From assembly GCA_024643425.1 (NCBI GenBank), contig JAHEMY010000003.1, positions 1-64,000 on the forward strand: a DNA stretch of 64,000 nucleotides, given 5' to 3'. A program made the position numbers and the translations under genes. The stretch is from Flavobacteriaceae bacterium. GTDB lineage: Bacteria; Bacteroidota; Bacteroidia; Flavobacteriales; Flavobacteriaceae. The notes beneath the pieces were generated by a model that had not been told where the DNA came from, did no database searches, and worked only from the letters and a program-made list of their open reading frames with translations. This document shows positions 35,511-52,134 of the stretch, in pieces (position 1 is the first letter of the stretch; each line of letters opens with the position of its first letter).

Positions 35511-37283
35511 ATGAGTATGCAAGAGTCACTTACCCACCATCTTCAAGCTGCTGTAAAGGAGCATTACAAGGTCGATATCAATAGCTTTGAATTTCAGGCA
35601 ACACGCCGCGAATTTGAGGGTGATATTACGGTGGTTGTTTTTCCCTTGTTGAAAGTAATTAAAGGAAACCCGGTACAAATTGGAACCCAATTGGGGGAAT
35701 ATTTGGTGGCTCATGTAGATGAAGTTGTTGCCTTTAATGTGGTCAAGGGTTTTTTGAATATTGTTCTTAGCGATTCCTATTTTTTACATAGTTTTTCGAC
35801 GATTCTAAAAGAAGAAAATTATGGGTTTGGCCCTAATTCGAACGATGCAATGATGGTGGAATATTCTTCACCAAATACCAATAAACCTTTGCACCTAGGG
35901 CACATTCGAAATATTTTATTAGGATCTTCAGTCGCAAGTATTTTAAAGGCTTCCGGGAAAAAGGTGTATAAAACACAAATTATTAACGACCGCGGAATTC
36001 ATATTTGCAAAAGCATGCTCGCGTGGCAGCGTTTCGGAAATGGTGAAACCCCAGAGACAACAGGAATTAAAGGAGATAAATTGGTTGGAAATTACTACGT
36101 GAAATTCGACCAAGAGTATAAGAAGGAAATAGAAGCATTAAGGTCCGAAGGATCTACCGAAGAGGAGGCCAAAGCGAAAGCTCCTTCCATATTAGCAGCT
36201 CAAGAAATGTTGCGAAAATGGGAGGCAGGCGATACGGAGACGGTGGCACTGTGGAAGATGATGAACGAATGGGTGTATGAAGGATTTGAGCAAACCTACA
36301 CGCAACTAGGAGTTTCGTTTGATAGTTACTACTATGAAAGCAATACCTATTTGCTAGGAAAAGACAATATCGAAGAAGGCCTTGAGAAAGGGGTGTTTTA
36401 TAAAAAAGATGATGGCTCTGTGTGGTGTGACCTTACCGAGGATGGGCTGGATGAAAAACTTGTGCTTCGAAGCGATGGAACGGCGGTATACATGACGCAA
36501 GATATTGGTACTGCAATCCAGCGGGTGAAGGATCATCCCGATGTAACAGGAATGATTTACACCGTTGGGAACGAGCAGGACTACCACTTCAAGGTGCTCT
36601 TCCTTATTTTGAAAAAATTGGGGTATACTTGGGCAGAACACCTATACCACCTGAGTTATGGAATGGTCGATTTGCCATCGGGTAAAATGAAGAGTCGAGA
36701 AGGTACCGTGGTGGATGCTGATGATTTAATTGAAGAAATGACACAAACGGCTCGAAGCATTTCTGAAGAATTGGGGAAAATTGATGACCTATCGGAATCT
36801 GAAAAAAGTGAACTTTATCATACCATCGGGCTCGGTGCCTTGAAGTATTATATTTTAAAAGTTGATCCTAAAAAACGAATCTTATTCGATCCCAAGGAAA
36901 GTGTCGATTTCCAAGGGAATACAGGCCCTTTTATTCAATACACCTATGCGCGAATTCAGTCGATTTTGAGAAAGGCAGGGAATGTTGGCGAAATAGATTA
37001 TACCAAGCTTCAGTTGCATCCAAAAGAAAAGGAGTTGTTGAAACAACTGCAATTGTATCCCGAAAAGGTACAAGAGGCAGCAGCTAATTTCAGTCCGGCA
37101 GTAATTGCGAATTACACCTACGATTTGGTGAAAGAATTCAATTCATTTTATCAGAATGTACCTATTTTGGGAACCGATAATGATCATGAAAAGTCCTTCA
37201 GAACACAATTATCAGGGATCGTTGGATCCGTCATAAAAAGCTCTTTTCTTTTACTGGGAATTGAAGTTCCTGAGCGAATGTAA
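35511..37283 (+). CDS. argS: Arginyl-tRNA synthetase
   Basis: A 590-residue class I synthetase. The HIGH motif is seen as KPLHLGHIRN near residue 127, the KMSK-like loop as GKMKSREGT, and the C-terminal anticodon-binding DALR domain as QYTYARIQSILRKAG. The N-terminal tRNA D-loop-recognising domain covers about residues 1-85. Start MSMQESLTHHLQAAV follows the promoter. It converges with the TonB receptor, 25 nt apart, with no obvious terminator. Confidence 0.98.
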   Translation: MSMQESLTHHLQAAVKEHYKVDINSFEFQATRREFEGDITVVVFPLLKVIKGNPVQIGTQLGEYLVAHVDEVVAFNVVKGFLNIVLSDSYFLHSFSTILKEENYGFGPNSNDAMMVEYSSPNTNKPLHLGHIRNILLGSSVASILKASGKKVYKTQIINDRGIHICKSMLAWQRFGNGETPETTGIKGDKLVGNYYVKFDQEYKKEIEALRSEGSTEEEAKAKAPSILAAQEMLRKWEAGDTETVALWKMMNEWVYEGFEQTYTQLGVSFDSYYYESNTYLLGKDNIEEGLEKGVFYKKDDGSVWCDLTEDGLDEKLVLRSDGTAVYMTQDIGTAIQRVKDHPDVTGMIYTVGNEQDYHFKVLFLILKKLGYTWAEHLYHLSYGMVDLPSGKMKSREGTVVDADDLIEEMTQTARSISEELGKIDDLSESEKSELYHTIGLGALKYYILKVDPKKRILFDPKESVDFQGNTGPFIQYTYARIQSILRKAGNVGEIDYTKLQLHPKEKELLKQLQLYPEKVQEAAANFSPAVIANYTYDLVKEFNSFYQNVPILGTDNDHEKSFRTQLSGIVGSVIKSSFLLLGIEVPERM

Positions 37284-37308
37284 TTGAACTAAATTCTGCA
37301 AACGTCCT

Positions 37309-39864
37309 TTAGAACAGAACTTGAACCGAGAAATTGGGGGTAAACCCTAAACTCGATTCTTCGATTCGATTGATGTCCGAATCAATATCAGCTGGGTCTT
37401 CAAGTGCGTAACGGATGTTCAAAGTGTTGTCTTGATTCGTCATATTGAGCAAGGCCAAATTGAACACAGCATCAACCTTGCTAGAAATTTTCCAAAGGTA
37501 TTCTGCCGAAAAATCCACTCGGAGGTAATCATTTAAACGCTCTTCATTAGGATCGCTGTAATCGATGGTTAGAAAGCCTTCTCCAAAAATAGGCGGGGCA
37601 TCGGTTTTCGGAACGGTATAAGGCCTTCCCGAATGCCAATTTAGGCCCAAAGCAAATTTAAATGCATTCCAGTTATACGATGAGGCGACGGTAAGGGTAT
37701 GTCGAACATCGATATTATTAGGAAATTCACTGGGCGTAAAAGAGGTGAAGTCATAATCGTTCTTCCCAAAACCATAACTCATCCAAATACTAAGATCTGA
37801 GATTTTCTTGTTGATGGTAAATTCGGCTCCGGTGACGGAATAATTCCCGAGGGCGGTTTCAAATTGAAACTGGTTTTGAAATCCCTGACTTTTACTGGTA
37901 ATGTTCTCCACATTTTTAATGAAACCTTCGAGATTTATAAACCACCCTTTTTTATGGTAGAGGAACCCTAATGAGGCTTGTCGACTTTTTTTGATGGGAA
38001 CGTCATTGTTGTTTGCCAAAACCCACCTGCGTTTTTCAATCCCCAAAAAATCACTTTGTAGATCGATGCGTTGTGTTAACGTCTGGCTTTTAAATTCTCC
38101 AAGTACTTCCAAAGCAAACCCGGGCAATAATTCCTGGTACACATAAAGTCTTGGTTCGACCAAAACCTCGCTAAATTTTTCAAAGTAATTGCCTCGTACG
38201 CCCGCATCGATTCTAGTTTTTTTATTGTCTGTGCGATATATTAAGTTTCCATATGCAATATGGGATCGAAGTACATTCTTTTCATAATCCCTAAAGCGTG
38301 GTAAATTCACGTCTTGGATATTAGAGATTCCAATTTCGGAGAAATGATACCCCGATTTGAGTTCGAAGAGATTTGATAATCTTAGTTTGGTGTCAAGTTT
38401 TGCTTCAAGATCCAGTACTTGGTTTTCCTGATTAATTTCTTGAAAAGTAAAGATGTCTTGATTTACGGCCTTTAATAGGTAATGGGTCGCCTGGATAGCA
38501 AGGTTTGTTTCGAAACGATCGGTCCATTCCCGTTCCCAAGATATACCGGCTGCCTCACTTTTCTGTTCGAGTCGACTGGTTTCCTCACTTTCTAGAAGTC
38601 GTTCCGAAAATTCAAAGTGGTTTTCCATAGCGATGAAGTTGACCCGGACCCGATCTTTTTCGGTTGGATCCCAAAGTACTTTTCCTCCCACATCGAAGAA
38701 ATAAAAGTCTTCTTGGAATAAGACTTCGGTAAAGGATTCTGAATTTTGGTTGTTGGTGATTTCGGTATCTTGAAAGATACGGTCGGAAAAATTAGAATAT
38801 ACGGGCGACTGAAAGATTCCGTTGATAGAAGACCGTCCGGAAATTTGAAGTCCTACTTTTTCGTTGATGGGAAGTTCCAGAAACGCATTGGCATTGATAA
38901 GGTTTGCGCCAATACCTCCTCTAAAATTTTTAGCGATATCGTTGTTTGAAGCCATTGAAATTACTCCTGAAACACTTTCTCCAAATCGGGCAGGAGTACC
39001 ATTTTTATAAACCGTTAAGTCTTTCGTAAGGTTTGGGTTAAATGCAGAGATTAAGCCAAAAAAGTGCCCAATTTGATACATGCGAAGGCCTTCCCATAAG
39101 ATTAAATTCTCGTCGTTGGTTCCTCCTCGTATGTTAATGGTAGATATGGTTTCGTTGATGCTTTCAACCCCGGGAAGGGCTTGTGCTATTTGCAATACAT
39201 CATTTTCCGTTTGACCCGGAAGTAATCCAAAGTTATTTGTATTGAGACTAGTAGAGCCGTCAACATTCCGATTGATTCCCTTTACCAAGATTCCACTTAT
39301 GAGCACCTCATTTAAACTTGAAATGGATGGAAGCATCAAGAGTTTGGGAACATCTTTTGAGAGTTCTGCCCCTGAAATAACCAAGGTGTGAAACCCTATA
39401 TGGCTAATTTGTATTTCGTTATTGGCATATTGTTTTGGGATGAAAAACCTTCCGTTTTTATCTGAAACAGTATTAAACTGAGCTCCTGTTACGGAAACCG
39501 AAGCATTTTCAAGGGGTTCGCCCGAACCATTGTCTATAATATACGCTCCAAGGGTATTCGGTTCATTTCGGACCTTAGCCACCGAATAATAGCGATCACT
39601 AATTTTTTCAAAGTGAAATGCCGTATTGCTATTCAGGTATTGTATGGATTCCTCCAAATTGAGGGTTTCAGACGGAGGAGTGATCATGTAATCCGAGACT
39701 TCATCAATCACGTAGGAAAATAAAATCTCGTGTGCCCGTTCTAAATTTAGAATGACCTTATACAAAGAGACCTCTGTTTCGTTTTGCGCATTCGAAGTGA
39801 ACGATGCTAAAAATAAAAATAGGCCAAATAGGAATAAAAGTGGTTTAGTTGCTGTTTTTGGCAT
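37309..39864 (-). CDS. FecA-like TonB receptor with N-terminal signalling domain (module 1)
   Basis: An 851-residue outer-membrane receptor. In order: signal peptide (to about residue 26); secretin/TonB short N-terminal signalling domain (about 30-97, VILNLERAHEILFSYVID...); carboxypeptidase-regulatory-like domain (about 104-185, LENASVSVTGAQFNTVSDKN); plug (NIRGGTNDENLILWEGLRMY); 22-strand-type barrel ending in Phe. The signalling domain contacts a FecR anti-sigma factor in known systems. fecR is immediately upstream and overlaps it by 20 nt. No SusD partner exists. The ligand is unknown; there is no siderophore gene nearby. Clearly paralogous to the receptor of module 2. Confidence 0.93.
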   Translation of the reverse strand: MPKTATKPLLFLFGLFLFLASFTSNAQNETEVSLYKVILNLERAHEILFSYVIDEVSDYMITPPSETLNLEESIQYLNSNTAFHFEKISDRYYSVAKVRNEPNTLGAYIIDNGSGEPLENASVSVTGAQFNTVSDKNGRFFIPKQYANNEIQISHIGFHTLVISGAELSKDVPKLLMLPSISSLNEVLISGILVKGINRNVDGSTSLNTNNFGLLPGQTENDVLQIAQALPGVESINETISTINIRGGTNDENLILWEGLRMYQIGHFFGLISAFNPNLTKDLTVYKNGTPARFGESVSGVISMASNNDIAKNFRGGIGANLINANAFLELPINEKVGLQISGRSSINGIFQSPVYSNFSDRIFQDTEITNNQNSESFTEVLFQEDFYFFDVGGKVLWDPTEKDRVRVNFIAMENHFEFSERLLESEETSRLEQKSEAAGISWEREWTDRFETNLAIQATHYLLKAVNQDIFTFQEINQENQVLDLEAKLDTKLRLSNLFELKSGYHFSEIGISNIQDVNLPRFRDYEKNVLRSHIAYGNLIYRTDNKKTRIDAGVRGNYFEKFSEVLVEPRLYVYQELLPGFALEVLGEFKSQTLTQRIDLQSDFLGIEKRRWVLANNNDVPIKKSRQASLGFLYHKKGWFINLEGFIKNVENITSKSQGFQNQFQFETALGNYSVTGAEFTINKKISDLSIWMSYGFGKNDYDFTSFTPSEFPNNIDVRHTLTVASSYNWNAFKFALGLNWHSGRPYTVPKTDAPPIFGEGFLTIDYSDPNEERLNDYLRVDFSAEYLWKISSKVDAVFNLALLNMTNQDNTLNIRYALEDPADIDSDINRIEESSLGFTPNFSVQVLF

Positions 39865-40750
39865 AGAGCATCACTTCATTGTCTTCAATTTTAAATTCCA
39901 ATTGTAGGGGCTCACAAATAGTTCGGAGGGCAACATTCAAATCTTTATGGGTAAAGCTTCCTGTGAATCTTTTATTCACCACACTTTGGTTGTTTATTTT
40001 AATGGGATATTGGCGCTGCAACTCATCCAATACGGCAGATAATGAAGCATTTTCGAATGTGCTTTCATAATGAATCCAAGAAGGAGCTCCTTCCGTAGTT
40101 GTTTCCAAGGCAATTAATTGATTGTTTTGAACTCTCAAATAGGTCCCGGCAGGAACTTTCACCAACGTATCTTGATACGCAACGCTCACCAAGCCTTCAA
40201 AGCATTTCACATAAAACTGAGAGCCGCGAGCAAAGACATTGAATTGTGTTCCCAACACCGAAACAACACCTTGTTCAGTGTGCACACTAAATTTTTTACC
40301 CTTTTGAACTTTAAAATAAGCTTCACCATGAAGCTCGAGGTCTCGATGGTCGTCCCAATCCTTTTCGCTAAACGAAATTTCAGACAATGCATTTAACACT
40401 ACTTCCGATTGATCGGGTAGCGAAAACGATTCTCTCTGAGCTATTTCAGTAGAAAAATTGGTATTGCTGTTACTTAAAAATAAGTAGGTGGTAACCACGA
40501 GTACAACAACGGCCGCAACCCTTAAAAATATGTTTAAAGGATTCAACCTACGCACTTGAGGCTGCAAAGGCAATCTGCCTCGAATCGCTTCTATATTAGT
40601 ATCCGCGCTAAATTCTGGAAGTTGGAATCCGGGAGTGGCTTCCGCAATTTTTATGTAAGAGGCATATTCTGAATCTGTCTTCAGCCGATTTATTTCTTCA
40701 GCAGTAGCAGTACCATTCAAAAATTTATGCAATATGTAGTTTTTGTCCAT
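39845..40750 (-). CDS. FecR-family anti-sigma factor (module 1)
   Basis: A 301-residue inner-membrane protein. A cytoplasmic sigma-binding part covers residues 1-70. One transmembrane helix follows (about 73-92, FLRVAAVVVLVVTTYLFL). The periplasmic FecR domain contains ESFSLPDQSEVVLNALSEIS, HGEAYFKVQ and SVLGTQFNVFARG. The C-terminal DUF4974/STN-like domain (about 232-301) is expected to touch the receptor's signalling domain. It transmits ligand binding to the sigma factor. Its 3' end overlaps the receptor gene by 20 nt. The promoter-like element GGTAGG-N17-TGTT lies in the gap before it. Confidence 0.95.
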   Translation of the reverse strand: MDKNYILHKFLNGTATAEEINRLKTDSEYASYIKIAEATPGFQLPEFSADTNIEAIRGRLPLQPQVRRLNPLNIFLRVAAVVVLVVTTYLFLSNSNTNFSTEIAQRESFSLPDQSEVVLNALSEISFSEKDWDDHRDLELHGEAYFKVQKGKKFSVHTEQGVVSVLGTQFNVFARGSQFYVKCFEGLVSVAYQDTLVKVPAGTYLRVQNNQLIALETTTEGAPSWIHYESTFENASLSAVLDELQRQYPIKINNQSVVNKRFTGSFTHKDLNVALRTICEPLQLEFKIEDNEVMLYAKNSN

Positions 40751-40776
40751 GATCTAATTTTCAATCTCACTACTGT

Positions 40777-40803
40777 AACAGTTAAAGAGCACTTTACCCT
40801 ACC
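40777..40803 (-). promoter_or_regulatory. Candidate ECF promoter of fecR-receptor, module 1
   Basis: Minus strand: GGTAGGGTAAA (40803-40793), 8 nt, then TAACTGTT; TGTT occupies 40780-40777. The same 11-base block and the TAnCTGTT block, equally spaced, recur before the lipoprotein gene of this module. It lies inside the 56-nt gap between sigma and fecR. Confidence 0.7.
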
Positions 40804-40806
40804 TAA

Positions 40807-41310
40807 TTATATTTCTTCGATTTCATTTCGAAGGGATGCCAACGCCTGACTCATTCTTTTTTCCACGGCTTTAACCGAAATATCAAGTATCTCCGCAATT
40901 TCTGCATATTTTTTTCCTTCAATACGATTCATTAAAAATGCGGTTCGTTGCGCTTCGGTTAAATTGGCAATGGCCGTTTGGAGTTTTTTATGAAATTGCT
41001 TTTCTTCTAATATATATTCCGGGGATTGCTCATTTATTTTATGAGGTTGCAATTGGGCATGTTTCAGCACCACTTTTTTGTGAGCGACCTCATTTAAAAA
41101 CATATTATTGGCTACGGTGTAGAGAAAAGACTTTGCTTTTTCTTGGGTGACTTTGGCGCAATTCTGCCATAGCTTAATGAATGCTTCTTGAACAAGATCA
41201 TCTGCTTGGGCGGCATCTCCACATTTATAATAGATAAAATGGTAAATGGGCTTTCCCCAAATAGCATGTAAATCGTTAAATATTTTCTCCGAACAAACGT
41301 CCTTAGCCAT
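40807..41310 (-). CDS. ECF sigma-70 factor (FecI-like), module 1
   Basis: A 167-residue sigma factor with region 2 (AQADDLVQEAFIKLWQNC) and region 4 helix-turn-helix (YAEIAEILDISVKAVEKRMS), no other domains. It would redirect RNA polymerase when FecR is stimulated. First gene of sigma-fecR-receptor; the candidate target promoters lie just after it and upstream of the divergent lipoprotein. Paralogous to the module 2 sigma along its whole length. Confidence 0.95.
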   Translation of the reverse strand: MAKDVCSEKIFNDLHAIWGKPIYHFIYYKCGDAAQADDLVQEAFIKLWQNCAKVTQEKAKSFLYTVANNMFLNEVAHKKVVLKHAQLQPHKINEQSPEYILEEKQFHKKLQTAIANLTEAQRTAFLMNRIEGKKYAEIAEILDISVKAVEKRMSQALASLRNEIEEI

Positions 41311-41358
41311 ATAGCATATTTAATACCCTCTAATTTATATAAAAAAATAATGAATCGA

Positions 41359-41385
41359 GGGTAGGGTAAATTTTATTCTACCTGT
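41359..41385 (+). promoter_or_regulatory. Candidate ECF promoter of the lipoprotein genes, module 1
   Basis: GGTAGGGTAAA (41359-41369), 8 nt, TACCTGTT with TGTT at 41382-41385. The distance from the first G to the ATG is 55 nt, identical to module 2. Matches the element before fecR of the same module. Confidence 0.7.
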
Positions 41386-41413
41386 TTTACCATTAAACGA
41401 ATACAATTAAATT

Positions 41414-43192
41414 ATGAACCCAATGAATTACTTACGAATTATTGCCGTGTTTGCCGCGATGCTTTTTTTAGGTTCTTGTCAGAAAGAAGAAAGAGAGTTT
41501 ATCGACGACACTACGAATGAAGAAACCTTCACGGCCGGATCAGATCTTACGCGTATTTTATTAAGTGCGTCACAAAATGATGGAACATTAGACAACCTTA
41601 TCGATGGAAGTAGTTGTATCGCCATTACATACCCCACACAGGTAGTTGCCAATGGACAAAGCATTACCTTAAATTCTATCGATGATATTAGTTTGGTTGA
41701 AGCAATTTTTGATCAATTTCCGGGGGATAGCGATCAATTGGAAATTATTTTTCCAATTACGGTTGTTACCGAAGCATTTGATGAAATTTTAGTGGAAAGT
41801 CAAACTGCCTTTGATAGTATCGTGGCGGCTTGTGAGAACAACATTGTGGATACCTATACCTGTGTGGATTTTGTTTACCCAATAAGTTGTTTTATTTACA
41901 ACGCATCCAACGAACAAACCAATACGGTAACCCTAAATAACGATTACGAGTGGTTTGAATACTTAAACTACTTGCAATCGGGTATTTACGTGGCTATCGA
42001 TTATCCAATGACGGTAATTGTGAATGGTGAAACCATTGTAGTGAATACCAATCAAGAATTGAACACCGCAATTTCTAGTGCAAATTGTTCCAATGGAGGA
42101 GGTGGTGGCAACCCAAGTGATTTTGAGAATATTATTACTACAGGAGTCTGGTATGTGACTTATTTCTTTGACGATTTTGATGAAACTTCCGATTTTGCTT
42201 CTTACGAATTCTCCTTTGCTAGTGACGGAACTGCAAATGCTTCGAATACTACAGGAAACACCCCAGGAACTTGGGATTATTATTTGGACAGCGGCGTAGA
42301 GAAAGTAGACCTTTTCTTTGGAGTAGTGAGTCCGCTGGATGAACTTGATGAAGATTGGGATATTTTAGAAGCTACAGAAGCTATTATAAGACTGCGACAT
42401 GAAAGTAGTGATGGTAGTTTGGATTATGTCACCTATGAACGAGATCCTTATACCGGCGGTGGCGGTGGAGGAGGAGTGAATCCTTTTATCACTGAAATTA
42501 CTGCAGGTTCTTGGTTTGTGAATTTGTTGGAAGACGACGGAACCGATGAGACTTGTGATTATGTGAGCTATGAATTCACCTTTAACGTGAACGGAACAGT
42601 TGCCGCGGTAAGTGATACCAATACCAAAAACGGTTTTTGGTCGGCTCTAGATGATAGTAGCGGTTTAGATTTAGTACTTAGTTTTGAGCTTAGCGGAAAC
42701 GATGATCCGTTCGAAGATCTAAACGACGACTGGGATGTAACCAATTACACTTCTTCCATCATACAACTTATCGATGTGAGTGGTGGCGGTGGTGGCACCG
42801 ATTACTTGAACTTTGGCAGAGATCCATACACAGGATGTGGTGGCGGTGGCGGAGGTTCCGATTTAACCGATATCCTACTTAACGGACCTTGGTTTGTGGG
42901 CACTTATCTCGACGATGGTGTGGATGAAACCTACGATTACTATGGATACAATATCACCTTTTCGAGCGACAATACTGTGGTTGCTGAAAATGGAGTAAAT
43001 ACTATAAATGGTACCTGGAGCGTTATAGGAAGCACAGATCTTGACTTAGTTCTAGATTTTGGAACTCAAATTCCATTCGATGAATTCAACGACGACTGGG
43101 ATGTGTTATCTTATACTACTACAACCATCAACCTGCAGGATGTAAGCGGTGGAGGTGGCGGAACCGACACCTTGATCCTTGAAAAACTTTAA
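41414..43192 (+). CDS. Large lipoprotein: four YP repeats plus three tandem DWD domains
   Basis: A 592-residue lipoprotein (lipobox LGSC, Cys22). Residues about 45-225 hold four beta-repeat units with the pattern hydrophobic-x-(Y/F)P...NG...: CIAITYPTQVVANGQ, LEIIFPITVV, CVDFVYPISCF and YVAIDYPMTVIVNGE. Then three homologous domains of about 110 residues (236-346, 357-472, 482-592), joined by Gly-runs. Each contains W(Y/F)V, D-DET or DETxD, Y-FTF, GT/GFW and a D-DWD motif. They look like small lipocalin-like beta-barrels, very acidic. Not assigned to any family I know. It is probably surface-exposed and works with the receptor of module 1. Confidence 0.85.
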   Translation: MNPMNYLRIIAVFAAMLFLGSCQKEEREFIDDTTNEETFTAGSDLTRILLSASQNDGTLDNLIDGSSCIAITYPTQVVANGQSITLNSIDDISLVEAIFDQFPGDSDQLEIIFPITVVTEAFDEILVESQTAFDSIVAACENNIVDTYTCVDFVYPISCFIYNASNEQTNTVTLNNDYEWFEYLNYLQSGIYVAIDYPMTVIVNGETIVVNTNQELNTAISSANCSNGGGGGNPSDFENIITTGVWYVTYFFDDFDETSDFASYEFSFASDGTANASNTTGNTPGTWDYYLDSGVEKVDLFFGVVSPLDELDEDWDILEATEAIIRLRHESSDGSLDYVTYERDPYTGGGGGGGVNPFITEITAGSWFVNLLEDDGTDETCDYVSYEFTFNVNGTVAAVSDTNTKNGFWSALDDSSGLDLVLSFELSGNDDPFEDLNDDWDVTNYTSSIIQLIDVSGGGGGTDYLNFGRDPYTGCGGGGGGSDLTDILLNGPWFVGTYLDDGVDETYDYYGYNITFSSDNTVVAENGVNTINGTWSVIGSTDLDLVLDFGTQIPFDEFNDDWDVLSYTTTTINLQDVSGGGGGTDTLILEKL

Positions 43193-43230
43193 CCAAAAAA
43201 TAATATTATTAATTGAAAACCTCAGTAATT

Positions 43231-43740
43231 ATGAAAAAGACATTTTTAAAAACAATCGCCCTTTTTTCCCTTGCAATTGCCTTTGTAGCTTGTTCTTCGG
43301 GAGATGATCCGGCTCCTGATGACAACAATAATAACAATAATAACAATCAAACCAGTGCCGATATCACTACAGATATTGCTGAAACCGGTGCTTGGCGAAT
43401 CACAAGCTTTATTGATTCCGGTCAGGATGAGACTGCCGATTTTAACGGATATACCTTTACGTTTAATCCTAATGGAACCCTCATCGCTACTAATGGCTCT
43501 GATACCGTAACGGGCACATGGAGTGTGACTGACGATAGTTCGAATTCATCCAGCGACGACGATGGTAATTCGACCGATGACGACGATTTCAACATCTTCT
43601 TCCCGGTTCCTGAGTCGAATAAATTTGAAGACCTGAATGATGATTGGGATTTTGTTTCGGTATCGAATACAAAAATCGAATTGATTGATATAAGCGGAGG
43701 AAACGGTGGAACCGATTTGCTTACCTTTCAGAAAGTATAA
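43231..43740 (+). CDS. Small lipoprotein with one DWD domain
   Basis: A 169-residue lipoprotein: lipobox FVAC, an Asn-rich linker (eight consecutive Asn in a run after PAPDD), then one copy of the domain that is triplicated in the preceding gene. Shared elements are TGAWRITSFIDSGQDET, FNGYTFTFNPNGT, GTWSV, DLNDDWDF and a Gly-Gly-Thr-Asp end. The ATG at 43231 gives a proper lipoprotein signal; a TTG at 43213 is less likely. It follows the large lipoprotein by 38 nt, likely in one operon. Confidence 0.85.
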   Translation: MKKTFLKTIALFSLAIAFVACSSGDDPAPDDNNNNNNNNQTSADITTDIAETGAWRITSFIDSGQDETADFNGYTFTFNPNGTLIATNGSDTVTGTWSVTDDSSNSSSDDDGNSTDDDDFNIFFPVPESNKFEDLNDDWDFVSVSNTKIELIDISGGNGGTDLLTFQKV

Positions 43741-43758
43741 TCCTTTTTTTGCCCCAAG

Positions 43759-43790
43759 AAAAGTCCCGGATTTTATCCGGGATTTTTTTT
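43759..43790. terminator. Terminator between converging module 1 lipoprotein and module 2 receptor
   Basis: TCCCGGA (43764-43770), loop TTTTA, TCCGGGA (43776-43782), then eight T. It serves the plus strand, and may help on the minus strand through the A-rich left flank. Confidence 0.88.
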
Positions 43791-46284
43791 AATATAAAAC
43801 CCTTAATGAAAAATTGGGGGTAAAACGCAAAGCAAATTCATCAACTTCCTCCACAATTCCTTCATTGTTGATTCGGAAGAAATGATTGATCGCATTGGGC
43901 CGATCCAATAAATTCCAAATCGAAGCACCGGCAAATAATTCAAAATCCCCCATGGTAAATTTATAGGTTCCCGAGATATCCACCCGAACATAATCGTCTA
44001 TGTTTTCGGTGTTCGGACTGCCAAAATTGAGGTTTCCATCCACGATTTCGTTGCCTTCGACAAGTAAAGTGGTTGGCTTGCCGGAATGCCAATTAACCCC
44101 GGCCGAAATATTAAAGCGATTGAGGGAATAATCGATACCATAGGTGAAGGTATGTCGAATGTCGAGGTTGTTGCTGAATTCATCCGGGACAAGATCATTG
44201 AAGGTGTAATTGTTCTTCGAATACGAGTAGCTCAACCAAGTGTTGAACGTTTTGAAGCGTTTATTCATTAGAAAGTCTACACCAATGATGTTATACTCAC
44301 CATGCGTTTTTACGTTTTCAAATTGATTCTGAAACCCCTGACTTTGGGTCGTTATTCCTTCTACCTGCTTGATGTAGGGTTCTATGTTTACCAACCATCC
44401 TTTTCGGTTCACTGTAATCCCTGTCGATAATTGTTTGCTTTTTATAATGGGAATGCTGCCCGGTTTTGATAATACCCACCTGCGATTTTCCACACCGAGA
44501 AAATCATTTTGAAAATCGATGATTTGCGAGGTAGTCTGACTTTTCATTTCTCCTAGTATTTCAAAAGTGAAATATTTCAGAAAACGATGGTTGAAGCTCA
44601 AGCGTGGCTCGATCAACCATTCGTCGAATTTTCCAATGTGATTCACGCGAACTCCTGCGTTGAGAAGAGTATTCTGAGTGGGTTGATAATGAACTTCTGA
44701 AAACAAACTTTGGGTGCGCAACACTTGCTTATCGGTTCGCTCGAAAAAAGGATTGTTGATTTGCTCAAAATTGGTAATCCCGGTTTCGTTAAATTGATAT
44801 CCGGCAATAGCATCTATTTGATTACTTAAGGTGTAGTTTCCTTTCAATTTAATTCCAGATTCTCGAACTTTATTTTGTTGAATAAGACGTTGGTCGTTAA
44901 TTATATCAAAGTTGGTTGCTTGTAAAAGATAAGAACTACCATAAAATTGAGCTTCGGTATTAAATTTTGAATTCCATAGGCGTTGGTAATAAAAACCACT
45001 GGAAATATTCTCCTGCACAAGATCGCTTCCAAGAGATTGGGGAATTTCATTCACTGTTGCGTTCTCTAAAAACTGGAGTTCATTACCCATTAAAACGATA
45101 TTGGCTCTAAAACGGTCCTTTTCATTAGGATGAACTAACGCCCGAATACTTGTGTCGTAAAATGTAAAGGTATCATCCGAAGTAGAAAATGAACCTCCCA
45201 TAGAGGTTAACTCGGTATTTTGAAATGCTTTATCAAAATAGGAACTATACGTGGGTGTTTCAAACAAATTGTTGATTGATTTACGACCTGAAATTTGTAG
45301 GGATCCGATACCTCCCAGAGGAAGATCGGCAAAAGCATCGGCACTCAATAAATTTAGCCCCGCGCCAATCCTTAGTTTTTTTGTAATCTCTTTAGAACCC
45401 TCCATCGATAACACCCCTGAAACGCCATCGCCCAACGCAGCTGTCGTTCCATTTTTTATGAGGGTTAATTCTTCGGTAAGTTGTGGGTTAAAAGCAGAGA
45501 TAAGTCCGAAGAAATGCCCGTTTTGATACATTTTTATTCCGTCCCATAGGATGAGGTTTTGATCATTGGTGCCACCGCGAATGTTGAGGTAAGAAACGGT
45601 TTCATTCACACTTTGAATACCCGGTAATGCTTGAACAGTCAATAATACATCAGGTTCGATTAATCCGGGGAGAATATCAAATTCACTATAATTTACCGTT
45701 AAGGAACCGTTTAGATTCTTAGAGATACCCTTGGCGAGATAGTTGTTCAAGATGACGGTATTTAACACCTCTATTTTTGGGGTTAGATACACGGGCTGGC
45801 AGGGTGATTTCGTGAACGTAGCCCCCGGTAAACGCAGCGTGTTATAACCGGGATATTCAATAAGGACATTTTCATCAGAAGAATTCAACAATAGTGAAAA
45901 ATTCCCTTCAGAATCGGAAACAATCTGTTCATATGGTGATTGAACGAGCACTTGAGGAAATCCTTCTTTAGAAGTGTTATTGATGATGTTTCCACAAATG
46001 GAAATTATATCGTCTTTTTCACTAATTGCAATAAGGTTGTTTTCAACCTCAGTAAAATCAAAGAGGCTATTTTGCGAAAGATAAGGAAGCGCTTCGGAAA
46101 GTTTATTAAAGGATTTTGGTGTAATATAATAATTGGTAATATCGGAATCTCGAAAAGAAAAATTACACGAAAATTGAGCTTCAAGCTCTTCTATATAGGC
46201 GCGGAGGGGCGAACGCTCTTGAGCGTTTATTAGAAGTGTGAAAAAAAAAGTAAATAAAAAAAGTAGGCTCTTTTTTTTAGTCAC
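43789..46284 (-). CDS. FecA-like TonB receptor with N-terminal signalling domain (module 2)
   Basis: An 831-residue receptor with the same layout as module 1. Signal peptide (ends LLINAQ), signalling domain (about 27-95), carboxypeptidase-like domain (about 97-175), plug and barrel ending in Tyr. The plug segment NIRGGTNDQNLILWDGIKMY differs from module 1 by only a few residues, as does GHFFGLISAFNPQLTEEL. The signalling domain has diverged much more, as expected if each pairs with its own FecR. It overlaps the upstream fecR by 8 nt. Confidence 0.93.
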   Translation of the reverse strand: MTKKKSLLFLFTFFFTLLINAQERSPLRAYIEELEAQFSCNFSFRDSDITNYYITPKSFNKLSEALPYLSQNSLFDFTEVENNLIAISEKDDIISICGNIINNTSKEGFPQVLVQSPYEQIVSDSEGNFSLLLNSSDENVLIEYPGYNTLRLPGATFTKSPCQPVYLTPKIEVLNTVILNNYLAKGISKNLNGSLTVNYSEFDILPGLIEPDVLLTVQALPGIQSVNETVSYLNIRGGTNDQNLILWDGIKMYQNGHFFGLISAFNPQLTEELTLIKNGTTAALGDGVSGVLSMEGSKEITKKLRIGAGLNLLSADAFADLPLGGIGSLQISGRKSINNLFETPTYSSYFDKAFQNTELTSMGGSFSTSDDTFTFYDTSIRALVHPNEKDRFRANIVLMGNELQFLENATVNEIPQSLGSDLVQENISSGFYYQRLWNSKFNTEAQFYGSSYLLQATNFDIINDQRLIQQNKVRESGIKLKGNYTLSNQIDAIAGYQFNETGITNFEQINNPFFERTDKQVLRTQSLFSEVHYQPTQNTLLNAGVRVNHIGKFDEWLIEPRLSFNHRFLKYFTFEILGEMKSQTTSQIIDFQNDFLGVENRRWVLSKPGSIPIIKSKQLSTGITVNRKGWLVNIEPYIKQVEGITTQSQGFQNQFENVKTHGEYNIIGVDFLMNKRFKTFNTWLSYSYSKNNYTFNDLVPDEFSNNLDIRHTFTYGIDYSLNRFNISAGVNWHSGKPTTLLVEGNEIVDGNLNFGSPNTENIDDYVRVDISGTYKFTMGDFELFAGASIWNLLDRPNAINHFFRINNEGIVEEVDEFALRFTPNFSLRVLY

Positions 46285-47179
46285 TGCTAGTTGGTTTAAG
46301 CTTTACGGTATCTCCCTCAATTTGATAAGACAATTTAAGGGGAATTGTAATAGCTTGCAAGGCAGCTTCTAAATTTTTGTGTGAAAAGCTTGTGGTAATC
46401 AAGGTAGTTTTAAGCGAACCTTCATACAACAGGGTAACATTGAACTGTCGTTCAATTTCGTTCAGCACTTCTTGGAAAGGAATACTTTTGAAGTTCGAAC
46501 GGTTTTCAAGCCAAGTTGGCTTTATCTCGCTCGTTACAGCACGTTCGCTGGAATTGCCGTAGGCTCTAAATTCGTTTCCGGCAGGGAGCATTATTTTTTC
46601 ATCTTGGTATCGAACTTCAACCAAGCCTTCATAACAAATTACTTCAAAAAAATCTGCTCTAGATTTTACATTGAATTCAGTTCCTAAAACTGTGATAGTT
46701 CCGTTTGGGGTATGCACTGAAAATGCGCTTCCTTTGGCCACGTCAAAAAACGCCTCGCCTTTAAGCTCTAAAGAACGATTAGCATTCCAGCTTTCTTTTT
46801 GGTAGCTTACTTCCGACCCCGCATTTAATACAACACGGGAATCGTCGGGAAGTTGTAGGGAAATCTGTTCAGTATTGTGGGCAAAAAAAGTATCGGGTTG
46901 TTCATGAAAATATCCGTAATAAACACCAAGGCATACAATTAAGATTGCAGCGGCGCTTGACATCATACGTTTCCATGGATACACTTGTTTTTGAGTCTGC
47001 TTCTCCTTTAAAATTCGAGCGTAAACTTCTTCTTGTTCAAAGGTAGGAGCTTTGAATTTTTGAACCGCACGATCAATCTTCAAATAAGCACTAGAGGCGT
47101 CCAATTTCTCGAACGCCCTTAGCTCTTTCTCCTCAAGGCTGTGATTCAGCCAATTGATAATTAAATCTTCCTTTTTCAT
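46277..47179 (-). CDS. FecR-family anti-sigma factor (module 2)
   Basis: A 300-residue protein with a cytoplasmic N-terminus, one transmembrane helix (about 71-88, MMSSAAAILIVCLGVYYG), a FecR domain (SLQLPDDSRVVLNAGSEVSY, GEAFFDVAKGSAFSVHTPNG, TVLGTEFNVKSR) and a C-terminal DUF4974-like domain. Same role and order as module 1. Preceded by its own copy of the GGTAGG element in the 52-nt gap after sigma. Confidence 0.95.
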   Translation of the reverse strand: MKKEDLIINWLNHSLEEKELRAFEKLDASSAYLKIDRAVQKFKAPTFEQEEVYARILKEKQTQKQVYPWKRMMSSAAAILIVCLGVYYGYFHEQPDTFFAHNTEQISLQLPDDSRVVLNAGSEVSYQKESWNANRSLELKGEAFFDVAKGSAFSVHTPNGTITVLGTEFNVKSRADFFEVICYEGLVEVRYQDEKIMLPAGNEFRAYGNSSERAVTSEIKPTWLENRSNFKSIPFQEVLNEIERQFNVTLLYEGSLKTTLITTSFSHKNLEAALQAITIPLKLSYQIEGDTVKLKPTSSD

Positions 47180-47195
47180 GTCAATTCATGTATAA

Positions 47196-47222
47196 AACAA
47201 CCCACACTTAAAAATTCCTACC
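47196..47222 (-). promoter_or_regulatory. Candidate ECF promoter of fecR-receptor, module 2
   Basis: Minus strand: GGTAGGAATTTTTA (47222-47209), 8 nt, TTGTTTTAT; TGTT is at 47199-47196. The 14-base and the 9-base blocks are repeated exactly, with equal spacing, before the lipoprotein of this module. Confidence 0.72.
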
Positions 47223-47231
47223 GTGATTGCA

Positions 47232-47747
47232 TTAAATTTCTTCAATTTCTTCTCTTAATTTTTCCAAAGCCGTATAAATACGCTTTTCAACTGCTTTTCT
47301 TGAAATGCCCAAAATTTCTGCAATTTCCTTATGCCGTTTTCCTTCGACGCGATTCATTAAAAAGGCAACGCGCTGCCCTTCCGGTAATTTTGCAAGGGCA
47401 TTTTGCAATTTATCCATGTATTCTTGTTCCTCTAATACAAATTGAGGAGTTTCGTTGGTATGCGTGGTTGGCTTCTCTTGTTGGTATTTTAGCACCACTT
47501 TTTGATGCTTTAGCTCATTTAACGTTAGGTTGTTTGCCACCGTAAACAGAAAACTCTTCGCCTTGTCCACGGGCGTATCCTTACAATGCTTCCAAAGTTT
47601 AATGAAAGCTTCCTGAACTTTGTCTTCCGGGTTTATTTGTTCCCCGTATTTATAGTAAATGAAATTATGTAGTTGCGCAGACCACTTTTCGTAGAGTTGG
47701 GAAAATAGTTCTTCCTTGCATACATTCTCGAAAAGTGGTTTGGCCAT
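47232..47747 (-). CDS. ECF sigma-70 factor (FecI-like), module 2
   Basis: A 171-residue sigma factor with region 2 (KVQEAFIKLWKHC) and region 4 (HKEIAEILGISRKAVEKRIY). Closely related to the module 1 factor, with shared segments VDKAKSFLFTVANNL/QEKAKSFLYTVANNM and AFLMNRVEGK/AFLMNRIEGK. A weak TATCTTCG at 47768-47761 may be its own housekeeping -7 element, separate from the GGTAGG elements. Confidence 0.95.
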   Translation of the reverse strand: MAKPLFENVCKEELFSQLYEKWSAQLHNFIYYKYGEQINPEDKVQEAFIKLWKHCKDTPVDKAKSFLFTVANNLTLNELKHQKVVLKYQQEKPTTHTNETPQFVLEEQEYMDKLQNALAKLPEGQRVAFLMNRVEGKRHKEIAEILGISRKAVEKRIYTALEKLREEIEEI

Positions 47748-47780
47748 AGAAGTGTTTTTGCGAAGATAAAAAATAATGTG

Positions 47781-47807
47781 GGTAGGAATTTTTATTTTTA
47801 AATTGTT
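47781..47807 (+). promoter_or_regulatory. Candidate ECF promoter of the lipoprotein gene, module 2
   Basis: GGTAGGAATTTTTA (47781-47794), 8 nt, TTGTTTTAT with TGTT at 47804-47807. The first G is 55 nt before the ATG, the same distance as in module 1. Confidence 0.72.
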
Positions 47808-47835
47808 TTATTTGTGTAAATGAAAGAATGACAAT

Positions 47836-48486
47836 ATGAATAAATTATTATTTCTTGTTTTTTGTGTGCTGTTAAGCGCTTGCCAAGAAGAAGAATTTAC
47901 CGAGATAAGTAATCAAGAGGAATCATCGTTTTTATTGGACGAACAATTATCTGGATATATGAAATCTGTAGCCTCCCATGATGGCTCCTTTGATAATAGA
48001 ATTGACAATTCAGACTGCTTTAGTATTAATTTCCCCTATGGCTTATGGGTAAATGGGGAACGGCATAACATGTCTTCTGCCGAGGATTTGATGGAAATTA
48101 CGTCGGGCGCGGAGGTTGTTCCGGAATTTCCGGTGACGATTACTACGGCAGACTATGTGGAAGTAGAAGTGAATTCAGTGAATGAATTACAAGCCATGAT
48201 TCTCGATTGCCATAGTGGTCAAATGTATGACGACATTATTACTTGTGTCGACTTTAGCTACCCGATTACCATTTCGTTGTACGACACCGAAAATTCAAAT
48301 TTCGAAACCGTGACTTTAAACCATGACTTGGATACATTTTCTTCCATAGAAACCCTAGATCCAAATAGGTTGGCGTCCCTTAATTTTCCAATTACTTTAG
48401 TGCTCAACAATGGCAATGCCATTACCGTAACTTCAAATGAAGATTTGAAAAATAAAATATTTAGCATTGCAGCAATTTGCAATTAA
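47836..48486 (+). CDS. Lipoprotein with four YP repeats (module 2)
   Basis: A 216-residue lipoprotein (lipobox LSAC). It consists only of the domain found at the N-terminus of the module 1 lipoprotein: four units CFSINFPYGLWVNGE, VPEFPVTITT, CVDFSYPITISLYD and ASLNFPITLVLNNGN. The preceding segment HDGSFDNRIDNSDC parallels NDGTLDNLIDGSSC of module 1. No DWD domains. No family known to me. Divergent from the sigma gene with its own ECF-like promoter; likely the surface partner of the module 2 receptor. Confidence 0.83.
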   Translation: MNKLLFLVFCVLLSACQEEEFTEISNQEESSFLLDEQLSGYMKSVASHDGSFDNRIDNSDCFSINFPYGLWVNGERHNMSSAEDLMEITSGAEVVPEFPVTITTADYVEVEVNSVNELQAMILDCHSGQMYDDIITCVDFSYPITISLYDTENSNFETVTLNHDLDTFSSIETLDPNRLASLNFPITLVLNNGNAITVTSNEDLKNKIFSIAAICN

Positions 48487-48527
48487 TAATGTTATAGAAA
48501 AGATTGTTAGGTTGGTTAGTTAGTTGT

Positions 48528-48562
48528 AAAAGCGTCTCTAGATTTAAATCGAGGCGCTTTTT
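48528..48562. terminator. Terminator between module 2 lipoprotein and DUF1624 gene
   Basis: AAAAGCGTCTC (48528-48538) pairs with GAGGCGCTTTT around a short loop, then T. With A- and T-runs on either side it can act for both converging genes. Confidence 0.85.
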
Positions 48563-48564
48563 CA

Positions 48565-49749
48565 TTATAAATAACTTAACCACCAGTAATTGCGATGCGC
48601 AGCTTTGTATTTCATATACCATAAACAAGGAATGTATAGCACTAACACGACCAAGACCCAAATTAAATAGGTGGTTCCCAAGGAATATCCATAGCCGTGC
48701 AACGCATTTGAAGTGAATACATTTTGAGTGAAAATCATTCTAGTCCAATCGCCACCGGTAATTAGTAATCCTATGATGGCTCCAACATGAATCACCAAAA
48801 CGTGCAATAGATAGTAAAAAAATGGAACGCGCCCAAAGACCAGAAAAAAGTCGGTAATTTTATTCTTTACATGCTCCGTGGCATATAAAAATAAAAATCC
48901 AGGTCCTAGAGTAACTAGCACAAACGCCAGGGAAGGAGGGTACTTAGTCACATTTAAAAACGACAAAAATGTATAAACACCATTCCGCTGCTCTGACCAT
49001 GGGACTAAATCGCCATAACTGTTTATTCCTCGAACTATAAAGAATAGCGCTAACGATCCAAAGCCCAATCGAAGGAGCCACTTTTTCCGCAATGCAGGGT
49101 CGAAATCTCGATCGTATAAACTTCCAAACAAAAATCCTAATACCATAACACCAACCCAGGGTAGGATCGGATAAAAGAAGGCGACCATTCGATTTCCGAA
49201 CATCACAAACTGACTTTGATGAAGGATATACCACAAAATTGTTAAAGGATCCTTTCCTTGCATGGTGAAACTATCCAATAAATTATGTCCAAAAATTAAA
49301 ATCAATCCTAGAATCAATAGTGCCTTCTTTGGGATGAAAATTAAAAAGGATAAAACAACCATGGCGAGTCCTATAGCCCAAATTACTTGTAGGTTGATAA
49401 AGCCATAACTCACATCGAACCACCATAAAAAATTCATTACGACTATTTCAATGAAGATAAGCCATAGCCCTCTTGAGATAAGGAATTTAAACAGTTCCAT
49501 CTTTGTTTTATTTCGCCCGTATAAATAAGCCGAAGTACCTGCTAGAAATACAAATGTAGGGGCGCAATAATGGGTGATGAAGCGTGTGAAAAATAAAAAA
49601 GGTGTTGTGGTTTCTAAATTAGTAGGGTCGTTGGTTGTAAGGGCATTTAAATGAAAATAATCTCGAACATGATCTAAGGCCATAATCACCATCACGACAC
49701 CACGGAGCAAATCAATCGATTCGATGCGGTACTTTTTTAATTCACTCAT
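48565..49749 (-). CDS. DUF1624 / heparan-alpha-glucosaminide N-acetyltransferase-like membrane protein
   Basis: A 394-residue polytopic membrane protein with roughly ten hydrophobic segments. The N-terminus RIESIDLLRGVVMVIMALDH with VRDYFH is the hallmark of DUF1624 (HGSNAT catalytic-like acyltransferases). FLAGTSAYLYGRNK follows. Such proteins move acyl groups across the inner membrane to sugars; the substrate here is unknown. Confidence 0.87.
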   Translation of the reverse strand: MSELKKYRIESIDLLRGVVMVIMALDHVRDYFHLNALTTNDPTNLETTTPFLFFTRFITHYCAPTFVFLAGTSAYLYGRNKTKMELFKFLISRGLWLIFIEIVVMNFLWWFDVSYGFINLQVIWAIGLAMVVLSFLIFIPKKALLILGLILIFGHNLLDSFTMQGKDPLTILWYILHQSQFVMFGNRMVAFFYPILPWVGVMVLGFLFGSLYDRDFDPALRKKWLLRLGFGSLALFFIVRGINSYGDLVPWSEQRNGVYTFLSFLNVTKYPPSLAFVLVTLGPGFLFLYATEHVKNKITDFFLVFGRVPFFYYLLHVLVIHVGAIIGLLITGGDWTRMIFTQNVFTSNALHGYGYSLGTTYLIWVLVVLVLYIPCLWYMKYKAAHRNYWWLSYL

Positions 49750-49842
49750 GGAAAGGTTGTTTGAATAAAACTAACGATTTTAATGAAAATAGGGTTCGTT
49801 TTTAGTGCGAATTTGCAATCACCAATTATTGAATACTTCCCC

Positions 49843-49873
49843 TTTGCTACTCCTTCGTCAATTTGTATCTTTG
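49843..49873 (+). promoter_or_regulatory. Promoter of ffh
   Basis: TTTG (49843-49846), exactly 19 nt, TATCTTTG (49866-49873): the best match in the window to the Bacteroidota housekeeping promoter. Confidence 0.7.
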
Positions 49874-49898
49874 CTTTTCTAAAATTGTAAGTAAGATC

Positions 49899-51227
49899 AT
49901 GTTCGATAATTTAAGTGAAAAGCTGGATAAAGCGCTTCATGTCCTAAAAGGTCATGGGAGCATTACAGAAGTCAATGTAGCAGAAACCCTGAAGGAGGTG
50001 CGTCGAGCACTCTTGGACGCTGACGTGAATTTTAAAATAGCGAAAGAATTCACGACTACAGTGAAGGAAAAAGCGTTAGGACAAAATGTTTTAACGACGC
50101 TTCAGCCCGGACAATTGATGGTCAAATTGGTCAAAGACGAACTCACCGAATTGATGGGTGGTGACACGGCCGGAATTAATTTAAGCGGCACCCCAAGCAT
50201 TATCTTAATGTCGGGGTTGCAAGGAAGTGGTAAAACCACCTTCTCCGGAAAACTAGCGAATTATTTAAAAACGAAGAAATCAAAAAAACCCTTATTAGTA
50301 GCTTGTGATATATACAGACCTGCAGCAATAAACCAGTTGCATGTGGTAGGAGATCAAATAGGCGTTGAAGTCTATAGCGAAGAAGGGAATAAGAATCCTG
50401 TCGAAATTGCTAAGAATGCAATTGCCTACGCAAAGAGTAACGGTTTTAATGTTGTGATTGTCGATACGGCCGGTCGTTTGGCGGTTGATGAGGCGATGAT
50501 GACCGAAATCGCAAACGTTCATAAAGCCATTGAGCCTCAAGAGACCTTGTTTGTTGTGGATTCGATGACGGGTCAAGATGCTGTAAATACAGCTAAAGCC
50601 TTTAACGACCGACTTAATTTTGACGGGGTGGTACTTACCAAACTCGATGGTGATACCCGTGGGGGAGCTGCAATTTCGATTAAAAGTGTGGTCGACAAAC
50701 CTATCAAATTCATCGGTACCGGTGAAAAGATGGATGCCATTGATGTGTTCCATCCTTCACGTATGGCCGACCGTATTTTAGGTATGGGGGATGTAATCTC
50801 TTTAGTTGAACGTGCCCAAGAGCAGTTTGATGAAGAAGAAGCCCGTAAACTTCAAAAGAAGATAGCAAAAAACCAATTTGGTTTCGACGACTTCCTAAGT
50901 CAGATACAGCAGGTAAAGAAGATGGGAAGCATGAAGGACCTGATTGGAATGATTCCCGGAGCAGGGAAGGCGATGAAGGATATCGATATCGATGATGATG
51001 CATTTAAACATATTGAAGCCATTATTCATTCAATGACGCCGGAAGAGCGCACTTCACCGGGAGTAATCAATGGAAGTCGCAAAAAACGCATTGCAAAAGG
51101 AAGCGGAACTTCTGTACAACAAATCAACCAGTTGTTGAAACAATTCGACCAAATGAGTAAGATGATGAAAATGATGCAAGGTGGTGGAGGCCGAAAGATG
51201 ATGCAAATGATGGGAAAAATGCAATAA
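49899..51227 (+). CDS. ffh: Signal recognition particle protein Ffh
   Basis: A 442-residue GTPase that targets membrane proteins to SecY through FtsY. The N domain is MFDNLSEKLDKALHVLKG. The G domain has GLQGSGKTTFSGKLA, DTAGRLAVDEAMM and TKLDGDTRGGAA. The C-terminal M domain is methionine-rich (MSKMMKMMQ...). The ATG at 49899 is chosen over an upstream TTG at 49863, which lies in the promoter -7 region. Confidence 0.98.
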   Translation: MFDNLSEKLDKALHVLKGHGSITEVNVAETLKEVRRALLDADVNFKIAKEFTTTVKEKALGQNVLTTLQPGQLMVKLVKDELTELMGGDTAGINLSGTPSIILMSGLQGSGKTTFSGKLANYLKTKKSKKPLLVACDIYRPAAINQLHVVGDQIGVEVYSEEGNKNPVEIAKNAIAYAKSNGFNVVIVDTAGRLAVDEAMMTEIANVHKAIEPQETLFVVDSMTGQDAVNTAKAFNDRLNFDGVVLTKLDGDTRGGAAISIKSVVDKPIKFIGTGEKMDAIDVFHPSRMADRILGMGDVISLVERAQEQFDEEEARKLQKKIAKNQFGFDDFLSQIQQVKKMGSMKDLIGMIPGAGKAMKDIDIDDDAFKHIEAIIHSMTPEERTSPGVINGSRKKRIAKGSGTSVQQINQLLKQFDQMSKMMKMMQGGGGRKMMQMMGKMQ

Positions 51228-51255
51228 TCAACAAATAACTTAATACCTCTTTAAA

Positions 51256-52134
51256 ATGACTATTCTCGACGGAAAAAAAATTAGCAACGATATTAAAAAT
51301 GAAATTGCTGCCAGAGTAGATAAAATGAAGGAACGTGGTGAAAAGGTTCCTCATTTGGCAGCCGTGATTGTTGGTGAAGACGGGGCTAGTTTGACCTATG
51401 TGGGAAGTAAGGTGCGCGCGTGTGAGCGTGTTGGTTATAAATCCACCATGATTCAATTACCGCACACGACCAGTGAAGTCGAGTTAATTCAGCAAATAAG
51501 AGCCTTGAACAAGGATAATGATATAGACGGATTTATTGTGCAACTGCCGCTTCCTCCTCAAATTGATGAAGAGAAAATATTATTGGAAGTTGATCCAAGT
51601 AAGGACGTAGATGGTTTCCATCCTATGAATTTTGGAAAAATGGCCTTGGACATGAGCACTTTTATTCCCGCAACGCCTTTTGGCATTCTGGAATTGCTGG
51701 AACGATACAAAGTAGAAACGCAAGGAAAACATACAGTAGTGATTGGCCGAAGCCATATCGTTGGAAGACCCATGAGTATTTTAATGAGCCGAAAGGGATG
51801 GCCAGGAAATAGTACCGTTACATTAACGCACAGCAGCACGAAGAACATTGCAGACATCACACGTCAGGCTGATATTATTATTTCGGCTTTAGGTGTCCCC
51901 GATTTTCTAAAAGCGGACATGGTGAAAGACGATGTCGTAATTATCGACGTTGGTATTACTCGTGTAAAGGATGAATCTCAACCGCGAGGATATGTGATCA
52001 AAGGGGATGTCGATTTTGAAAATGTGAGTAAAAAAGCTTCTTTTATCACTCCGGTTCCAGGAGGAGTTGGTCCCATGACCATTGCCATGTTGTTAAAAAA
52101 TACGTTGTTAGCCAGAGAGCAACGAAATAATTAG
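51256..52134 (+). CDS. folD: Bifunctional methylene-THF dehydrogenase / methenyl-THF cyclohydrolase
   Basis: A 292-residue one-carbon enzyme interconverting 5,10-methylene- and 10-formyl-tetrahydrofolate. Motifs: YVGSKVRACERVG with the catalytic-Lys region, GFIVQLPLPPQIDEEKILL, VVIGRSHIVGRPMSILM (Rossmann) and PVPGGVGPMTIAML. It follows ffh by 28 nt and its stop overlaps the converging permease gene by 4 nt. Confidence 0.98.
   Translation: MTILDGKKISNDIKNEIAARVDKMKERGEKVPHLAAVIVGEDGASLTYVGSKVRACERVGYKSTMIQLPHTTSEVELIQQIRALNKDNDIDGFIVQLPLPPQIDEEKILLEVDPSKDVDGFHPMNFGKMALDMSTFIPATPFGILELLERYKVETQGKHTVVIGRSHIVGRPMSILMSRKGWPGNSTVTLTHSSTKNIADITRQADIIISALGVPDFLKADMVKDDVVIIDVGITRVKDESQPRGYVIKGDVDFENVSKKASFITPVPGGVGPMTIAMLLKNTLLAREQRNN

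Follow-up and report, generated by a model that had tools for sequence, protein, structure and literature searches.

GGTAGG-N17-TGTT elements as candidate promoters of ECF sigma factors in two FecI/FecR-like modules of a Flavobacteriaceae genome

The window analyzed here (64,000 nt from contig JAHEMY010000003.1 of the Flavobacteriaceae assembly GCA_024643425.1) contains two surface-signalling modules lying in tandem between argS and ffh-folD (window positions 35511-52134). Both have the same layout, with genes for an ECF sigma factor, a FecR-type regulator, and a TonB-dependent receptor on the reverse strand and one or more lipoprotein genes diverging from them on the forward strand (Table 1). 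Pfam searches recovered the adjacent FecI/FecR/TonB-receptor gene set in both modules, and its synteny is kept in homologous loci; iron-citrate transport genes are absent from the modules. In relatives, a single module of either type adjoins argS at one flank or ffh/folD at the opposite flank, so the window represents a tandem pair within a conserved interval.

Table 1 Genes and candidate promoters of the two modules in the window.
Feature	Position	Strand	Remarks
Module-1 TonB-dependent receptor	37309..39864	-	CarboxypepD_reg-like, Plug
Module-1 FecR-type anti-sigma factor	39845..40750	-	FecR, FecR_C
Module-1 ECF promoter (candidate)	40777..40803	-	sigma/fecR gap; -35 GGTAGGGT, -10 TGTT; GGTAGG starts 53 nt 5' of fecR ATG
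Module-1 ECF sigma factor	40807..41310	-	Sigma70_r2, Sigma70_r4_2; recognition helix SVKAVEKRMSQAL
Module-1 ECF promoter (candidate)	41360..41386	+	5' of divergent lipoprotein gene; GGTAGG start to ATG, 54 nt
Module-1 lipoprotein, 592 aa	41414..43192	+	N-terminal domain common with module-2 lipoprotein; three lipocalin-like repeats
Second lipoprotein	43213..43740	+	one lipocalin-like domain; downstream of module-1 lipoprotein, same strand
Module-2 TonB-dependent receptor	43789..46284	-	FecR_C-like N-terminal domain (E 4e-4) in the position of a signalling domain
Module-2 FecR-type anti-sigma factor	46277..47179	-	
Module-2 ECF promoter (candidate)	47196..47222	-	sigma/fecR gap; -35 GGTAGGAA, -10 TGTT; 43 nt to fecR ATG
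Module-2 ECF sigma factor	47232..47747	-	recognition helix SRKAVEKRIYTAL
Module-2 ECF promoter (candidate)	47781..47807	+	5' of divergent lipoprotein gene; 55 nt to ATG
Module-2 lipoprotein, 216 aa	47836..48486	+	

Domain searches returned no STN-type signalling domain at the N-terminus of either receptor; the resemblance of this region to FecR_C noted for module 2 in Table 1 had an E value of 0.15 in module 1. The repeats of the module-1 lipoprotein (AlphaFold model with mean pLDDT 83.6 and pTM 0.40) matched lipocalin-like DUF4822/DUF4847 structures in a fold search, and the module-2 lipoprotein gave no significant match, including in its fold search.

A pattern search of both strands found GGTAGG-N17-TGTT exactly four times in the window, compared to 0.05 ± 0.22 in shuffled sequence, in agreement with the four copies claimed by the first-pass annotation. 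Three of its coordinate pairs were correct, and the fourth, 41359-41385, was off by one (actual position 41360-41386). The copies before the lipoprotein genes had been placed exactly 55 nt from the ATG in both modules; this holds for module 2 (47781 to 47836), and the distance in module 1 is one shorter, at 54 nt (41360 to 41414). The extended forms were confirmed as GGTAGGGTAAA-N8-TAnCTGTT in module 1 and GGTAGGAATTTTTA-N8-TTGTTTTAT in module 2: the two copies of each module agree with one another and differ from those of the other module. Between modules the spacer is scrambled and both boxes are unchanged.

A scan of genome contigs with three sigma sequences yielded 58 homologous loci (L062-L119), all from Bacteroidota (mostly Flavobacteriaceae, with some Saprospiraceae and one Cyclobacteriaceae), nearly all of which keep the sigma-fecR-receptor order. 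Together with the two modules of the window these make 60 loci, or 61 when a related module on contig C9 of the same assembly is included. Among the 60, the element occurs in the sigma/fecR gap, in the region 5' of the divergent lipoprotein gene, or in both. All ten letters matched at a spacing of 17 nt after the sigma gene in 32 loci and before the lipoprotein gene in 31; at least nine of ten matched in 46 and 41 loci, respectively (shuffles, 0.5-0.6%). At spacings of 16 or 18 nt, no locus reached nine letters, and the opposite strand gave no exact match and zero to one match at nine letters or more. ECF promoters are expected to show two boxes about 16-18 nt apart upstream of their targets, and the boxes here lie upstream of the putative targets at 17 nt only.

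A matrix scan requiring AGG and GTT found at least one element in all 61 loci and both in 45, though one of the two copies is missing in a few. The invariance of AGG and GTT in that scan is by construction, and we therefore take the letter counts at spacings of 16, 17, and 18 nt as the unforced measure of conservation. Variants of the -35 box include AGTAGG and TGTAGG, with TTCAGG/ATCAGG in one clade, and the -10 box may read GGTT or CGTT. Of 106 sites, 98 have a pyrimidine before TGTT and 89 have an A three bases after it. The long extensions seen in the window reduce on comparison to letters 7-8 (GT versus A[A/G]) and an A/T-rich tract. Median distances to the ATG are 55 nt for lipoprotein genes and 47 nt for fecR; going by these distances, transcription starting at such promoters would leave a leader of roughly 10-20 nt.

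The two modules are duplicates, occupying an interval that holds a single module in relatives, and the similarity of the four sites might on that account be a functionless leftover of tandem duplication. The probability of this seems to us close to nil, as the encoded proteins have diverged (54% identity between the sigma factors and 34% between the FecR proteins) and the boxes stayed fixed while the spacer was scrambled; the boxes are moreover kept across distances at the family level, and unlinked genes have them upstream as well. Another alternative is that the element, being intergenic and two-part like some regulator sites, binds an activator or repressor common to the modules and contains no sigma -35/-10 pair. 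This is very unlikely: the element is asymmetric and always aimed at the gene at the distances given above, its spacing is invariably 17 nt, it adjoins ECF sigma genes and varies with the type of their recognition helix, and we saw no further conserved gene for a DNA-binding protein within the module.

The bare pattern matched 18 times in the whole assembly (control, 3); four of these matches are in the window and two on contig C9, a few others are intergenic, and chance matches fall mostly in coding sequence. At 0-1 mismatches, the extended module-1 form matched six times, always upstream of genes, and the extended module-2 form without mismatches had no match in the genome outside its module. 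Looser scans allowing up to three mismatches gave 37 matches versus 57 in the control, and only results at 0-2 mismatches were used. Across genomes, the module-1 form GGTAGGGTA-N13-YTGTT had 38 matches and none in the reversed control in 16 genomes with a module-1-type sigma, and the module-2 form had 24 matches and one in the control in 13 genomes with a module-2-type sigma. A typical genome carries the pair of sites at the module plus zero to two additional sites. The genome-wide scan proposed in the first-pass annotation turned up none of the frequent unrelated occurrences of the extended motifs that would have spoken against a promoter. Within about 1.5 kb of twelve other ECF-type genes of this genome, the element was absent save for one AGTAGG variant more than 1 kb away.

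The related module on contig C9 (L060; 3.4 kb) carries both promoter elements. It was considered a possible third system here but dropped from the count: over 3374 nt the contig shares 94% identity with one of another flavobacterium (L062), where the copy lies beside argS as module 1 does, and given this identity it may have entered the assembly by contamination or been acquired recently.

Promoter letters vary with the DNA-recognition residues of the adjacent sigma factor. All 56 loci with the -35 core GTAGG encode K151, with alanine or glycine at position 148, and all five with TCAGG encode Y151/V148; the change from one core to the other and the change of recognition helix fall on the same branch. 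In the extension, GT at positions 7-8 goes with M153 and S/H154, and A at position 7 goes with I153-Y154 in most loci. Replacement of N73 accompanies a -10 box of CGTT. Sigma positions 151, 154, and 155 presumably correspond to DNA-contacting residues in the E. coli sigma-E/-35 structure. For the -35 core the association is without exception, and for the extension it is strong, yet few independent events underlie it: since the core changed once on the sigma tree and the extension three times, too few pairs for an independent-pairs test, the coupling is by clade and does not amount to statistical proof.

The first-pass annotation had read the four elements as -35 and -10 boxes of the cognate ECF factors, a reading supported by conservation, the 17-nt spacing, the strand and position relative to gene starts, covariation with sigma type, and specificity at the genome scale. 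Judged from sequence comparison, the elements are very probably promoters used by the ECF sigma factors of their own modules. The further suggestion that module-specific extensions confer specificity is borne out in part. The difference is real but comes down to two bases: within the extension, positions 7-8 alone seem discriminating, and the difference looks like a clade trait. Mutual specificity between the modules lies beyond what sequence data and three changes on the sigma tree can decide. Both sigma factors might instead read all four promoters as a shared regulon, with the extension differences reflecting drift. The -35 core and -10 box are identical between modules, a site at C100:16432 carries both marks (GGTAGGGTTTTTT), and marks are mixed at two homologous loci, all of which would fit such sharing. 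We nevertheless consider it the less likely arrangement, though one with an appreciable chance, given that letters 7-8 follow sigma type (only GT in 38 loci, only A. or GA in 21, and the two mixed) along with helix residues 153-154, and that the copies within each module match each other and not those of its neighbor.

None of the 61 loci has an element directed at its sigma gene. The circuit is in this respect more particular than in the first-pass annotation, the promoter serving fecR-receptor and the lipoprotein gene and not the sigma gene. In 23 of 61 loci (shuffles, 5.7%), the 80 nt upstream of the sigma gene contain an exact match to the housekeeping box TAnnTTTG; for both sigma genes of the window the best match is 5 of 6, which makes the case for a housekeeping promoter weaker for them. 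We infer that sigma supply is constitutive and that the sigma factor drives its anti-sigma factor, receptor, and surface lipoprotein.

Each module may accordingly be pictured as a FecI/FecR/FecA-like surface-signalling system. A housekeeping promoter would maintain a steady level of sigma factor, which FecR would hold until a ligand at the TonB receptor sent a signal through FecR that freed or activated it. RNA polymerase carrying the sigma factor of the same module would then read the -35 GGTAGG with its two-base type mark, the 17-nt spacer, and the -10 TGTT, transcribing fecR with the receptor gene and, divergently, the surface lipoprotein gene or genes. Since the sigma factor would drive fecR and the receptor gene and not itself, induction should raise receptor and anti-sigma together and leave sigma unchanged, and anti-sigma induced against constant sigma would make the response self-limiting. 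The sign of the feedback would depend on the role of FecR, being negative if it acts as an anti-sigma factor and positive if it acts as a pro-sigma factor like E. coli FecR. In this way the gene layout itself yields a prediction about feedback: anti-sigma and receptor should be inducible and sigma should not.

ECF promoters and FecI/FecR-like systems are already known in kind. The FecI-FecR-FecA system of E. coli likewise combines an ECF sigma factor, a FecR-type regulator, and a TonB receptor, with the receptor gene transcribed by the sigma factor and the sigma gene by the housekeeping sigma (PMC9249621). In E. coli, however, fecI and fecR share one common non-autoregulated promoter (PMC9249621), whereas the modules described here have an ECF promoter between sigma and fecR, which would place the regulator gene within the induced set; they also add a divergent surface lipoprotein and lack the iron-citrate transport genes. 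TGTT has been reported as an ECF-linked -10 box in promoters of Bacteroides thetaiotaomicron (PMC12596196), where the non-canonical motif 2 (-30/-10), associated with SigW-1/SigH-1, shares TGTT at about -10 (PMC7366714, PMC12596196). In the portions of those sources compared here, motif 2 is near-palindromic and not given as GGTAGG, and its sigma factors are ECF251 and ECF114. The SM6 promoter of Flavobacterium psychrophilum, derived from mapped transcript starts, is also a flavobacterial ECF-type promoter but has CGT as its -10 box, and it is genes for type IX secretion that it targets rather than FecR/TonB modules (PMC9723704). Phosphate-responsive ECF/FecR genes of Flavobacterium johnsoniae similarly adjoin surface-protein genes; they are defined by expression under phosphate depletion, and we found no promoter element in the passages compared (PMC8115612).

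We found no association of GGTAGG with a sigma factor in the Bacteroidetes literature compared; the main ECF classification lies outside this comparison, and a prior computational prediction is possible. Within the same limits, and for the portions of sources compared, we likewise found no account of a -35 class reading GGTAGG, of its switching by clade together with the recognition helix, of a promoter separating sigma from fecR, or of a lipoprotein/cytochrome regulon. A 27-nt pattern without control matches in 16 genomes suggests that FecI-like regulons may be readable from sequence, making the element a usable key for predicting targets of a poorly known class of regulators, and the GTAGG/TCAGG switch points to particular sigma residues for mutation.

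Sites unlinked to modules hint at the content of such regulons. Unlinked module-1-type sites in relatives lie mostly 5' of surface-lipoprotein genes, some encoding the same lipocalin-like domain. In this genome and two relatives, a module-1-type site precedes an operon for a c-type cytochrome lipoprotein, YceI, and DUF5777, and in four relatives one precedes a gene whose product is a twin-arginine lipoprotein containing (DDGYY)n repeats, a similar gene being present in a fifth. The lipocalin-like domain of this lipoprotein is that of the module-1 lipoprotein (E 3e-29). A gene for a glycosyltransferase-9-domain protein lies downstream of the (DDGYY)n lipoprotein genes in relatives (L181, L185, L186, L192, L142).

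On contig C141 of this genome (L058), a module-1-type site precedes a gene pair for a multihaem cytochrome and an iron-sulfur (4Fe-4S)/flavin oxidoreductase. On contig C19 (L059), a module-1-type promoter precedes a cytochrome c lipoprotein operon, with a cupredoxin gene nearby. The C141 and C19 sites possibly belong to a surface redox regulon. It is conceivable, though we hold it to be unlikely, that these modules form a distinct marine-flavobacterial branch of surface signalling in which sigma is constant, anti-sigma, receptor, and lipoproteins are co-induced, and the regulon builds a surface layer of lipocalin-like lipoprotein and c-type cytochrome, possibly for surface redox chemistry or ligand binding.

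The mixed-mark site at C100:16432 lies upstream of a putative conserved small transcript. In two genomes (L008 around 1213-1527, from contig C100 of this assembly, and L183), an element occurs about 315 nt upstream of the gene for a peptidyl-prolyl isomerase; the intervening stretch is conserved, contains a terminator, a sigma-54-like box, and what may be an ORF of 17 codons (MKHK...), and perhaps specifies a small RNA or tiny protein. In two Winogradskyella genomes (L209, L210), a conserved pair of genes for secreted proteins, unlinked to the module, has a module-2-type promoter 127 nt upstream. Finally, at L184 (around 1525-1730) a module-1-type element lies about 200 nt upstream of what looks like the gene for another member of the sigma-70 family (ECF-like), an arrangement that possibly reflects a sigma cascade.
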